Source: Pseudomonadales bacterium
GTDB taxonomy: Bacteria; Pseudomonadota; Gammaproteobacteria; Pseudomonadales; Azotimanducaceae
Assembly (NCBI GenBank): GCA_028281005.1
Contig: JANQKS010000089.1
Coordinates: 1-38,587, forward strand
Reading direction: 5' to 3'
Length of the DNA: 38,587 nt
Shown here: piece by piece, positions 22,218 to 38,587 of the stretch
Numbering within the stretch: position 1 is the stretch's first letter
Layout of the letters: each line of letters opens with the position of its first letter
The notes under the pieces: model-generated
The model's database searches: none
What the model was told of the DNA's origin: nothing
The model's input: only the letters and a program-made list of their open reading frames with translations
Position numbers and translations under genes: made by a program

Positions 22218-24326
22218 ATGAAAAGCGTACCCACTTATTGCAGAATCTGCGAACCCCAATGTGCCATGATCGCCAGCGTCGAAGACGAACAAGTTGTGCG
22301 TCTGCTGCCGGACAAAAACCACCCCGTACACAAAGGTTTTGCGTGTCACAAAGGCCTCAATTTTGTTGAGTTGCACCGCGACCCGGATCGCATCAATTTC
22401 CCTCAGGCGCGCAGCAACGCCAAGCAAGCCGCTGTGGGTGAGTTCGAACAGCTGGATTGGGACACCGCCGCGCAAGCAATATCAAAACGCCTTGCCGACC
22501 TAGCGGAAAAATACGGCAGCGATGCGCTTGGTATGTATGTCGGCAATCCGTCAGCCTTCAACAGCACTGGACGAGAAGCCGCGCGGCGCTTCGCCCGCGC
22601 GGTGGGTGTGAAATACTCGTTTGGATCCGGCACCCAAGATTGCTCCAACAAATTTGCTGCCTCCGAAGCCATGTTCGGGACCGCAAACTTGCATCCCATT
22701 CCGGATTTTAAGCACACCAACTATTTCTTAAGTATTGGCTCCAATCCAAAAATCTCTCACGTCAGCTTTGTGCACATGACCAACCCCATGGCCACGCTAC
22801 GAGACATTGTCGCGCGCGGCGGTACGGTGACCCATATCAACCCGCGTAAAATTGAATCCGCCACGCCGCATACCGGTGAGGTTGTGCAGATTAAACCCGA
22901 CACCGACGTGTACTTTCTGGCGGCGTTAATCCATGAAATCAAAACCCAGAATCTAGTTGACGAGGCCTGGTTAGAGAGCCGTGCCAGCAACGCGGATGCG
23001 TTATGGCAGTTTGTTGCCGACTACGCACCGGCCGACGTTGCCGACGTGGTTGGCATAGACGCTGAAACAATGCGCAACCTCGCGCGGGATTTCGCCAACG
23101 CCGACGGCGCCAGCGTCCACATGAGCACCGGTGCCAACATGGGGCGCCAAGGCACCCTAGCCTACTGGCTGGTACAGATGTTAAGTCTGATCACCGGCAA
23201 TTTAGGCCGCAAAGGCGGCAACATCTATTCACCCGGCTATTTTCCCGCGGCTACCGTTGGCAAACCCAAAACCGACAATCCCTTTTTTGAATCGCCGTTT
23301 GGTGAAATGCGCCGCATCACGGGCTCCCTGCCCGGTAACCTGTTGGCGGAACACATCGAAGCCGGTCTGGTGAAAGGCCTCATCTGTATGTCAGGCAACC
23401 CGATCCTGTCCATGGCGGGTGAAAGGCGTTTGCGGGAAGCCTTTAAAAAGCTCGAATTGTTAGTGGTGGTGGACATCTATCCCAGCGCCACTGCAAACCT
23501 CGCCGACTATCTGCTGCCCGCTACAGACTGGTTGGAACGCGCCGATGTCAATTCGGTTTCGCTGGGTTTCCAACCGGAACCCTATGTGCAGTACACCGAA
23601 GCCGTGGTGCCACCGGCGTTTGAGCGCAAACCTGAATGGTGGATCTTCGCACGCTTGCTACAGGCGCTGGGTTTACCTTCAGAATTGGATCAAGCACAAG
23701 CCGATCCGATGGCAAAAATAGACCGCCAGCTCAACAACAGCGACCTATCTCTGGCGCAATTGCAGGCGCAGCCCAGCCACACCATCACGTTGCCAGAACC
23801 GCAGCCAGAGTTGCTATTCGACGTTGCGGTGCAGCACGAAGGGGCCAAAGTGGACTGTTTCCCGTCGCTGATCGCCCGCGGTGCACCTGCCTGCAGCCGC
23901 ATTTTCGCAGAGCTAAAGGCAGAGTCCGCGGACACGCTGAAGCTCATCACGTTGCGCACCAACTACATGGTCAACAGCTGGATGCACAACCTACCGGCGC
24001 TGAAGCGAGACGTGGCGTTGGACAATCCCTTGCATATGCATCCCGAAGACGTTGCCCGACTCGGCCTGGCAGACGGCACCGAAGTCAGCGTCGCCTCAGA
24101 CCACGGCAGCATCATCGCCACGGTAAAAGCGGATGAAGACCTACGTCAGGGGGTGGTTGCCATGACCCACGGCTGGGGGCATGCCAACAATCCGCGTTTA
24201 AGCCTGGCGCACAATCACCCGGGCACTAACGTCAATGCTTTGTTGCCAACCGGTGCCGGCAGTTACGACCCACTGTCGAACATGAGCTTCATGACCGGTA
24301 TACCGGTCAGCATCAGAGCGGCCTAA
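22218..24326 (+). CDS. Molybdopterin-dependent oxidoreductase (DMSO reductase superfamily)
   Basis: A 702-residue catalytic subunit. The N-terminal [4Fe-4S] motif is C8-x2-C11-x3-C15-x27-C43, in YCRICEPQC and FACHKG. Molybdopterin domains follow, with INPRKIESA, MSTGANMGRQGTL, GNLGRKGGN and a C-terminal molydop-binding domain (TLRTNYMVNSWMHNL, MTHGWGHANNPRLS). Cys142 in QDCSNKF sits roughly where a molybdenum-ligating residue can occur; that is inference. There is no Tat signal, so it is cytoplasmic. Formate-dehydrogenase- or nitrate-reductase-like activity is possible. ATG at 22218 is preferred; 22206 is also in frame. No electron-transfer subunits flank it. Confidence 0.9.
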   Translation: MKSVPTYCRICEPQCAMIASVEDEQVVRLLPDKNHPVHKGFACHKGLNFVELHRDPDRINFPQARSNAKQAAVGEFEQLDWDTAAQAISKRLADLAEKYGSDALGMYVGNPSAFNSTGREAARRFARAVGVKYSFGSGTQDCSNKFAASEAMFGTANLHPIPDFKHTNYFLSIGSNPKISHVSFVHMTNPMATLRDIVARGGTVTHINPRKIESATPHTGEVVQIKPDTDVYFLAALIHEIKTQNLVDEAWLESRASNADALWQFVADYAPADVADVVGIDAETMRNLARDFANADGASVHMSTGANMGRQGTLAYWLVQMLSLITGNLGRKGGNIYSPGYFPAATVGKPKTDNPFFESPFGEMRRITGSLPGNLLAEHIEAGLVKGLICMSGNPILSMAGERRLREAFKKLELLVVVDIYPSATANLADYLLPATDWLERADVNSVSLGFQPEPYVQYTEAVVPPAFERKPEWWIFARLLQALGLPSELDQAQADPMAKIDRQLNNSDLSLAQLQAQPSHTITLPEPQPELLFDVAVQHEGAKVDCFPSLIARGAPACSRIFAELKAESADTLKLITLRTNYMVNSWMHNLPALKRDVALDNPLHMHPEDVARLGLADGTEVSVASDHGSIIATVKADEDLRQGVVAMTHGWGHANNPRLSLAHNHPGTNVNALLPTGAGSYDPLSNMSFMTGIPVSIRAA

Positions 24327-35765: not shown

Positions 35766-35824
35766 CGATAGCCTGCTGGGGAAGTTGTTCAGCAACGCTC
35801 AAACATTAAAGGGGAAACAGTTTG

Positions 35825-36751
35825 ATGCGCACCACTCAACCCATGGCAAACGCCACTGGACACCTAAATATCGTAACCCCGGACCTCGATATGGCTGCGA
35901 TGCACGCGCTGCTGCTGGAGCACGGCTATCTCATCATTGAAGAACTTGCCGTCGATCTCGCGAGCCGTGCCTGGCAAGACCTCAAACCGCATATTGATGT
36001 TGCACCTTTTGGCCACGACGAATTCCTCGGCGCACGCACCAAACGCCTCGGTGGTATACTGCAAAAGTCGGAGGCCGCCCAGGAATTGGTGACCCATCGC
36101 GTGGTGTTGAGTCTGTTAGAACGCGAGTTGCTGAAGTACGCCACCAACTACCAACTGAACTTCACCGGTGTCATGCACTTAGAACCAGGGGCTTTGGCCC
36201 AGCCGTTGCACCGCGATGGCGATTTGTATCCGCTGTCCCACCTCGGTATCACAACGCTTATGCCTACTATGTGGGCTCTGTCAGAATTTGATGCCGCCAA
36301 TGGCGGGACCCAAGTGGTACCCGGCAGCCATCTGTGGCCTGACGATCGTGACGCCGAACCACACGAAGTGATCAACGCAGAAATGCCACCTGGCTCGGTG
36401 CTCATTTACTTAGGCGGCACCATCCACGGCGGCGGCGAAAACGCCAGCCAACGCGCGCGCACAGGCATGGCGATGCAATACAGCCTGGGCTGGCTGCGGC
36501 AGGAAGAAAACCAATATCTCGCGCACCCGCCAGAGGTTGCGCAGGCGTTCCCCGAGCCGCTGCGCCGTTTGATCGGTTATGACTACGGCGGCAGCTACCT
36601 GGGATTTGTAAACGGTGATGACCCACATCGTCTGTTTGAGCCTGGGTATAGCGGCCCCGCTATGCGGTCTCGGCCGGAAATAGATGCTGCCAAAGAGAAG
36701 TTACCGCGCTTCGCGCTGACGCAGCTTCCGGTCAAGGGCAAGGTGTTTTAG
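35825..36751 (+). CDS. Phytanoyl-CoA dioxygenase (PhyH) family protein
   Basis: A 308-residue Fe(II)/2-oxoglutarate-dependent oxygenase of the PhyH family. The iron-binding HxD pair is in QPLHRDGDLYPL, the partner His in GGTIHGGGENAS, with an Arg following (SQRARTGMAMQYS) for 2-oxoglutarate. GGTQVVPGSHLWPDDR is the typical loop. ATG at 35825 (or TTG at 35822) has AAAGGGGA upstream. It follows cysD by about 100 bases. PhyH-like enzymes hydroxylate many small molecules; the substrate is unknown. Tight convergence (four bases) on the LysE remnant follows. Confidence 0.92.
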   Translation: MRTTQPMANATGHLNIVTPDLDMAAMHALLLEHGYLIIEELAVDLASRAWQDLKPHIDVAPFGHDEFLGARTKRLGGILQKSEAAQELVTHRVVLSLLERELLKYATNYQLNFTGVMHLEPGALAQPLHRDGDLYPLSHLGITTLMPTMWALSEFDAANGGTQVVPGSHLWPDDRDAEPHEVINAEMPPGSVLIYLGGTIHGGGENASQRARTGMAMQYSLGWLRQEENQYLAHPPEVAQAFPEPLRRLIGYDYGGSYLGFVNGDDPHRLFEPGYSGPAMRSRPEIDAAKEKLPRFALTQLPVKGKVF

Positions 36752-37019: not shown

Positions 37020-37499
37020 CTATTGATACGCAGCGGCAGTGATAAACTGACCAAAGGTCTCGCACCAAACGATAGCGGCGCTATAGTCGCGCGGGTCGAT
37101 GGTATCCGGCACGCTGAGCATAAAGTTCTCAAACGTGCGCACATGCCCTACCTGTACCATACTTGCCTTCAACGCGGCAAAGTCGGCTTCTGTTTCGACA
37201 AACTTCGGCGACAGATAGAGCCGATAATCCGGCCCCGGGGCCAGGTTTCCTTCAAACGCGACAGCATCATCTGAGATGTAGAGTGCCCCCTCTCCCCAAT
37301 GCAAGGCATCGCTGTCCGTCAAATCGCGCCGGAAAGTGCCCGTAAACTGTGCAGCACTGGCTGTGGCGCGCACAACCTCCGTTGCCGGGCTCGCAGGCGC
37401 CGTGAGGATGGGTAAGGCGTAGATACCGAGAGCAAAACCGATGGCGATGGCGCCTAAGTGCGTGGCGGCGAAAATGGCCACCTTAGCGGGTTTAGTCAT
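37020..37499 (-). CDS. DM13-domain protein with N-terminal membrane anchor
   Basis: A 159-residue protein. A hydrophobic helix at about residues 8-32 is an uncleaved signal anchor or signal peptide. The rest is a DM13 domain: FTGTFRRDLTDSDALHWGEG, ALYISDDAVAFEGNLAPGP, DYRLYLSPKFV, and a final SAAIVWCETFGQFITAA with the domain's conserved Cys. DM13 domains are proposed to be redox or electron-transfer modules at the cell surface. ATG at 37499 is preferred because the open frame to 37610 has no membrane logic. Its stop touches the LysE remnant. Confidence 0.85.
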   Translation of the reverse strand: MTKPAKVAIFAATHLGAIAIGFALGIYALPILTAPASPATEVVRATASAAQFTGTFRRDLTDSDALHWGEGALYISDDAVAFEGNLAPGPDYRLYLSPKFVETEADFAALKASMVQVGHVRTFENFMLSVPDTIDPRDYSAAIVWCETFGQFITAAAYQ

Positions 37500-37616
37500 T
37501 GCTTGAGATGCTCCCCTTGAGACGGCCGCGATAGGCCAGATACACCTTCGACCGTGTGTTTCGACTTTCAGTTCAACCGAATCGCAGCAACCCTGCATTC
37601 CAATTGCCAAAATCCC

Positions 37617-38336: not shown

Positions 38337-38587
38337 ATGGCACGCATCCACCTAAAGCAAGATCACGAGCTGGAACCGCATGTGTTGGAAACAGTGAAAG
38401 CCATGGAAGCGGCCGGCGGCGACTCTTCAACCAGTCGCGGTCTGGCCAACAGCCAAGCGCTGTTTGACAGCTACTTTCAGTTTTATTTACCGGCGCGCGC
38501 GGGTCGCTCCGTGCCGGAGGAACTCATTGAACTGGTCAGGCTGAAGATTGCACGGCATAACAATTGTTTCACGTGACTCAATGCGCG
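38337..38587 (+). CDS. Carboxymuconolactone decarboxylase/AhpD-like protein, candidate selenoprotein (partial)
   Basis: The gene runs off the right edge. From ATG at 38337 the protein reads MARIHLKQDHELEP, a helical GLANSQALFDSYFQFYLPAR segment, then VPEELIELVRLKIARHNNCF, the layout of CMD/AhpD-like proteins before their redox C-x-x-C. Codons at 38565-38576 are TGT TTC ACG TGA, so TGA falls exactly at the second Cys, followed in frame by CTC AAT GCG CG (Leu-Asn-Ala-Arg), with the Arg expected after the motif. I read this as Cys-Phe-Thr-Sec. CMD-domain proteins are among known bacterial selenoprotein families. If TGA is a true stop, the product is a 79-residue non-functional stub. The SECIS hairpin would lie beyond the window. 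Confidence 0.78.
38574..38576 (+). other. In-frame TGA, candidate selenocysteine codon
   Basis: The codon replaces the second Cys of a C-x-x-C redox motif, and conserved sequence continues after it. Only 11 bases downstream are visible, too few to test for a bacterial SECIS stem-loop. Confidence 0.65.

Follow-up and report, generated by a model that had tools for sequence, protein, structure and literature searches.

The question raised by this locus is whether an open reading frame that meets a TGA codon at the very edge of a contig is the start of a selenoprotein gene and, if so, which reaction its product would carry out. The window, that is, the whole stretch of DNA analyzed (38,587 nucleotides), is contig C88 in full and belongs to a Pseudomonadales genome of 5.1 Mb in 135 contigs. 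The frame begins at position 38337 on the forward strand and has 79 codons before its TGA (38574-38576), after which only 11 bases of the window remain. A first-pass annotation of the window proposed a CxxU selenoprotein of the CMD/AhpD-like family at this position; because the window is the entire contig, the sequence past its end was invisible to that reader.

Gene structure across the contig junction

The last 99 bases of the window (38489-38587, forward strand) match one end of contig C15 (82351-82449, minus strand) base for base in reverse complement, and this 99-mer is present in only two places in the whole assembly, the ends of C88 and C15. We read it as an overlap left by a de Bruijn assembly graph; some contigs of related bins are named with k99, which would fit this reading. 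Reading continues through the join to a TAG codon, which gives a frame of 182 codons with TGA as codon 80. The 5' part of the gene (38337-38587, forward strand) contains codons 1-83 plus two bases, and the remainder lies on the minus strand of C15 (82350-82053). The join rests on the 99-base overlap plus the frame and the homology across it.

The TGA takes the place of the second Cys in a motif of CxxC type, C77-F-T-U80, whose first residue is encoded by TGT at 38565-38567 (forward strand); it is the comparison of homologs described below that leads to codon 80 being read as selenocysteine (Sec). The first-pass annotation had placed the TGA at the "resolving-Cys" position of the motif. It does occupy the place of the second Cys, a residue that may be either the resolving or the attacking one. 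The residues L-N-A, given there as following the codon, can be read up to the end of the window.

Conservation of the in-frame TGA

We searched 146 genomes, the genome of the window included, for relatives of the gene. A match at E <= 1e-15 was found in 39 of them, and in 32 the best match was at least 51% identical (51-85% outside the own genome). These 32 matches were defined as close homologs; the stop-free matches are 30-38% identical, and no match falls between the two ranges. All 32 close homologs contain an in-frame TGA, and it is codon 80 in each of the 29 that were read base by base (all except those of G069 and G027 and the window's own gene). The conserved sequence expected after the TGA was found both as the frame that runs to TAG on C15 and as protein sequence kept in the close homologs. 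The own genome also encodes a paralog, a stop-free match that carries C-R-S-C.

In a named collection of loci, 156 stretches encode a relative, and the best 80 of these were kept. Codon 80 is TGA in 75 of the best 80, a Cys codon in four (L117, L122, L126 and L134, so that the Cys expected at the TGA column does occur) and an Arg codon in one; this collection shares genomes with the 146-genome set, as contigs of equal length show, and the two counts are not independent. The loci with TGA come from several phyla: they include Pseudomonadales metagenome-assembled genomes (MAGs) and 'Candidatus Litorirhabdus singularis' IMCC14734, as well as MAGs labelled Desulfobacterales, Rokuibacteriota, Deltaproteobacteria and Chloroflexi. 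By their titles, 79 of the best 80 loci come from MAGs, the single carrier of another kind being IMCC14734. Two loci (L108 and L132) are on MAG contigs titled Klebsiella pneumoniae, a label that looks wrong; the relatives of the gene come from MAGs of other groups. A search of plasmids gave 25 records, all below 60% identity, and the one that was read (Novosphingobium PP1Y) has Cys. The phylogenetic tree requires at least four changes between Sec and Cys; its branches are long and we do not rely on it.

A hairpin downstream of the UGA codon

The first-pass annotation had called for a SECIS-like hairpin after the TGA, and one was found, with pairs that covary. It starts 13-14 bases past the TGA, within the coding sequence. 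With the U of UGA as base 1, the stem joins bases 17-23 to bases 27-33 and leaves a three-base loop at 24-26. In the window gene the first 14 bases of the UGA and SECIS region are at 38574-38587 (forward strand), while hairpin bases 18-32 are on contig C15 at 82347-82333 (minus strand); this gene forms six of the seven pairs, the outermost being a U-U mismatch. The 75 loci and the window gene give 76 Sec genes, which were reduced to 67 distinct sequences by dropping nine with identical 36-base stretches or with N. These 67 form a mean of 6.85 of the seven fixed-register pairs (57 form all seven and 10 form six), against 4.58 in synonymous-codon shuffles, of which an average of 4% reach the real value, and 2.53 when that register is applied to 11,239 other codon positions. 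The four Cys homologs and the paralog in the own genome form one to four of the seven pairs. Every one of the 67 sequences has G as the first base of the loop. This agrees with excerpts of the 2005 paper (PMC1088965), which describe the bacterial SECIS as a hairpin just after the UGA with a small loop and a conserved loop guanosine.

Covariation was measured on 28 representatives. Of their cells, 97.4% are paired, against 75.3% in shuffles and 34-58% in slid controls, and 49 cells are changed on both sides (shuffles, 15.5; slid registers, 1-7). The register was read off the same sequences that it was tested on, and the slid controls therefore lean towards that register. None of 500 shuffles reaches either 97.4% paired cells or 49 double-changed cells, and all seven pairs are changed on both sides somewhere among the representatives. 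Two of the five covariation measures, the number of pairs changed and the number of pair types, show no excess: 101 and 340 of the 500 shuffles, respectively, attain the real counts. The folding energy after the TGA, computed for 71 distinct stretches from the 76 genes before the fixed-register and covariation tests were made, is weakly below that of synonymous shuffles (mean z -0.59, with 28% below -1 and 77% below 0). From its sequence pattern, the hairpin is a predicted bacterial SECIS element kept by compensatory changes.

Selenocysteine machinery of the host

A host that decodes UGA as Sec, which the first-pass annotation took to be implied, is borne out by the gene content: selA, selB, selC and selD are all found over the cut-off on contig C47. 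The first three (selC being the tRNA-Sec gene) are within 5 kb of each other, and selD is about 8 kb further. ARAGORN identifies the tRNA-SeC with anticodon tca. The selD match (C47, 122409-123317, minus strand, locus L022) is part of a 731-codon frame whose N-terminal portion is oxidoreductase-like and whose SelD portion carries C-G-G-C instead of Sec. On the basis of excerpts of PMC2398784, we take this frame to resemble the published Ndh-SelD fusion. The product of these genes, SelA, SelB, tRNA-Sec and SelD, would decode UGA codon 80 as Sec, and the sequence and covariation of the intragenic hairpin suggest that it would direct this decoding.

A selB match (E <= 1e-60) was found in 30 of the 32 carriers of a close homolog and in 47 of the 114 other genomes searched (Fisher p 4e-8, a value that ignores shared descent). 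For the window's own family, defined here as G000-G090 (thus without G091 and G092), the counts are 30 of 32 and 41 of 59 (p 0.008, again ignoring shared descent). The two exceptional carriers are G057, in which selA and selB give partial, sub-cut-off matches, and G009, an assembly of 520 contigs in which selA has no match and selB none over the cut-off. As for other selenoprotein candidates, neither an Rdx/SelW match nor a formate dehydrogenase over the cut-off was found in the own genome; one match with stops (L137) has them ahead of a long open frame. The window itself contains a molybdopterin-oxidoreductase-like segment at 22221-22970, with a weak match (36 bits) to a formate dehydrogenase alpha model, which lies in an open frame of 742 codons.

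Fold, active site and likely reaction

For L056, a close relative of 179 residues, an AlphaFold model built on a 46-sequence alignment has a pLDDT of 87.8 and a pTM of 0.82 and is helical throughout. Its best solved matches are 2prr, 6k40, 2oyo, 3c1l and 2ijc, with TM scores of 0.65-0.74 by query length. All are AhpD-like, peroxidase-related proteins, and profile searches agree. The modelled fold is AhpD-like, with the CxxU motif included. The family assignment of the first-pass annotation holds in this respect; its CMD half is loose, as the protein scores 12.9 bits against the Pfam CMD model PF02627, below the gathering score of 23.

Four residues, E65, C77, U/C80 and R84, are invariant in the 46 sequences (alignment A2). 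According to excerpts of PMC3141380, AhpD was proposed to use a five-residue proton relay, Glu-Cys-His-Cys-His, in which Tyr replaces the first His in Pseudomonas PA0269, a protein that reduces H2O2 weakly. The present protein keeps the CxxC/U pair and, 12 residues ahead of its first Cys, the Glu; the His at +4 and the His or Tyr before the second Cys are absent, so that two of the five relay positions, Thr79 and Arg84, differ. The residue at +4 is Arg in 46/46 aligned sequences and 75/75 Sec loci, and the residue before Sec is Thr in 74 of the 75 and Ile in one. Since the Cys homologs also carry the Arg, it is not tied to Sec. PA0269 and the AhpD-like structures (2ijc, 2o4d, 2prr and 6k40) match the protein in sequence and fold and share the spacing of the Glu and the first Cys; as far as the excerpts go, where they have the second Cys, Tyr or His, and the relay His, the present protein has Sec, Thr and Arg.

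We consider that the protein is most likely a selenium-dependent peroxidase or thiol(-disulfide) oxidoreductase. Taken alone, the assignment of the reaction to a peroxide or a disulfide is reasonably probable. The 182-residue, all-helical product would work by closing and opening a selenenylsulfide between C77 and U80. Sec80, a stronger and more ionized nucleophile than Cys, would attack the peroxide or disulfide-type substrate, Cys77 would then form the Se-S bond with it, and a thiol system of the cell would re-reduce that bond.

Another possibility, which we regard as rather improbable, is that the protein is a real selenoprotein with a different reduction on the AhpD fold as its main reaction, such as reductive dehalogenation as carried out by the debrominase Bmp8. 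Bmp8 does appear at ranks 26, 31 and 32 of the structural matches and also among the profile matches, and the relay His is replaced by Arg throughout the alignment; however, other AhpD-like proteins match better than Bmp8, the Arg is equally present in the Cys homologs, and no shared gene context points to dehalogenation, the neighbors being largely unannotated. It is likewise improbable that the sequences form a distinct clade of AhpD-fold selenoenzymes in which the altered relay, Arg for His, goes with the use of Sec for a different reduction. By analogy, the substrates could then be marine halogenated aromatics, treated in the manner of Bmp8 or the deiodinases, or a catabolic by-product. 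A search of the literature returned nothing on the Bmp8 debrominase or on the reductive dehalogenation of tetrabromopyrrole with deiodinase.

Gene neighborhood

No partner gene is common to the best 80 named loci, and the largest cluster of neighbors is found in 12 of them. In eight loci (L065, L067, L068, L070, L072, L074, L083 and L086) the gene is preceded on its own strand, at a distance of 5-101 bases, by what we take to be a dienelactone hydrolase-like gene, and in the six Chloroflexota loci (L124, L125 and L127-L130) the gene 76-95 bases upstream is presumably hydantoinase-like. The genes that flank the selenoprotein gene here, a methyltransferase on the window side and a ferredoxin-like gene on the C15 side, were not found in the best 80 of the 156 loci, so gene order gives no confirmation of the join between C88 and C15. 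Pfam scans of the window further identified a gene with a DM13 electron-transfer domain (37020-37610, minus strand) and a gene with a PhyH phytanoyl-CoA dioxygenase domain (35822-36751, forward strand).

Alternative readings of the TGA codon

The two readings in which the codon is not Sec have next to no chance of being correct. In one, the TGA would have arisen through faulty sequencing or assembly, or through a nonsense mutation that turned a Cys gene into a pseudogene or truncated its protein. The codon is only 11 bases from the contig end, where assemblies branch, and one of the named copies, L133 (2743-3063), is clearly damaged: it lacks the first 31 and about 41 internal residues and has CGA (Arg) in place of the TGA. 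This copy still retains six of the seven hairpin pairs, so we read it as a decaying gene, as if the loss were recent. In the family as a whole, the conservation of the codon in the 32 close homologs and in 75 named loci of several phyla (partly the same genomes), together with the frame and protein kept downstream, rules out an error or a pseudogene. The other reading is that UGA is translated as a different amino acid, through suppression or a change of the code such as UGA=Trp. The frame is open however the TGA is read, and the damaged L133 has Arg; the four homologs with Cys in this column, the covarying hairpin, and the sel genes with a tRNA-Sec of anticodon tca lead us to reject it. The gene is almost certainly a real selenoprotein gene in which TGA codon 80 is read as Sec.

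Relation to known selenoproteins

The family models give the protein sub-cut-off scores. Besides PF02627, it matches zf-C2H2_2 with 15.3 bits (cut-off 26.9), slightly above its CMD score. The best NCBIfam match is NF053654, 'YciW-related (seleno)protein', with 61 bits, far under the cut-off of 310, and the alignment spans residues 53-153 only; TIGR01926 gives 25.3 bits against a curated cut-off of 81.8. All 46 members of alignment A2 match NF053654 at E <= 0.001. The best E-values among these 46 (of the 80) are 1.4e-21 for NF053654 and 3.4e-14 for TIGR01926, and the first member scores 63.1 and 27 bits, respectively. From the E-values we infer that none of the 46 reaches either cut-off.

The type of protein is not new, as the first-pass annotation noted: available excerpts of the literature show CxxU selenoproteins of this kind in print since 2005. 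In that year, 27 AhpD-like and four CMD sequences were reported (PMC1088965, in excerpt). Excerpts of a 2008 count give 299 selenoproteins of AhpD-like 1 and 70 of AhpD-like 2 (PMC2398784), and the portions seen of reviews from 2022 (PMC9312934) and 2026 (PMC13188914) list both AhpD-like and CMD selenoproteins. The AhpD-like CxxU group (COG2128/TIGR01926; Sargasso Sea, and 'AhpD-like 1' of the GOS data) shares with the present protein the motif and the AhpD-like character and, according to excerpts of PMC1088965, PMC2398784 and PMC13188914, a bacterial SECIS directly after the UGA; it differs in TIGR01926, the cut-off of which the present protein misses. The CMD domain-containing selenoprotein (PF02627; PMC1088965, in excerpt) likewise has CxxU in common and differs in PF02627, where the present protein is below the cut-off.

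The present protein and the PF02627 CMD selenoprotein presumably belong to the same superfamily. The protein is of the CxxU AhpD-like/CMD selenoprotein type already reported. Its clade may be part of the sequences counted as AhpD-like in the 2005 and 2008 papers. Judged by its scores, the clade may be without a name in the curated models, and since the window protein is below their cut-offs, it may be missed in routine annotation. We found no report in the literature on selenoproteins and selenocysteine in metagenome-assembled genomes of Pseudomonadales.

With this finding, a group known almost entirely from MAGs gains a well-supported selenoprotein, and a conserved enzyme comes to light that ordinary gene calling would end at residue 79. 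The selenoprotein reading can be tested with the help of the covarying SECIS alignment and of IMCC14734, the one carrier that is not a MAG.
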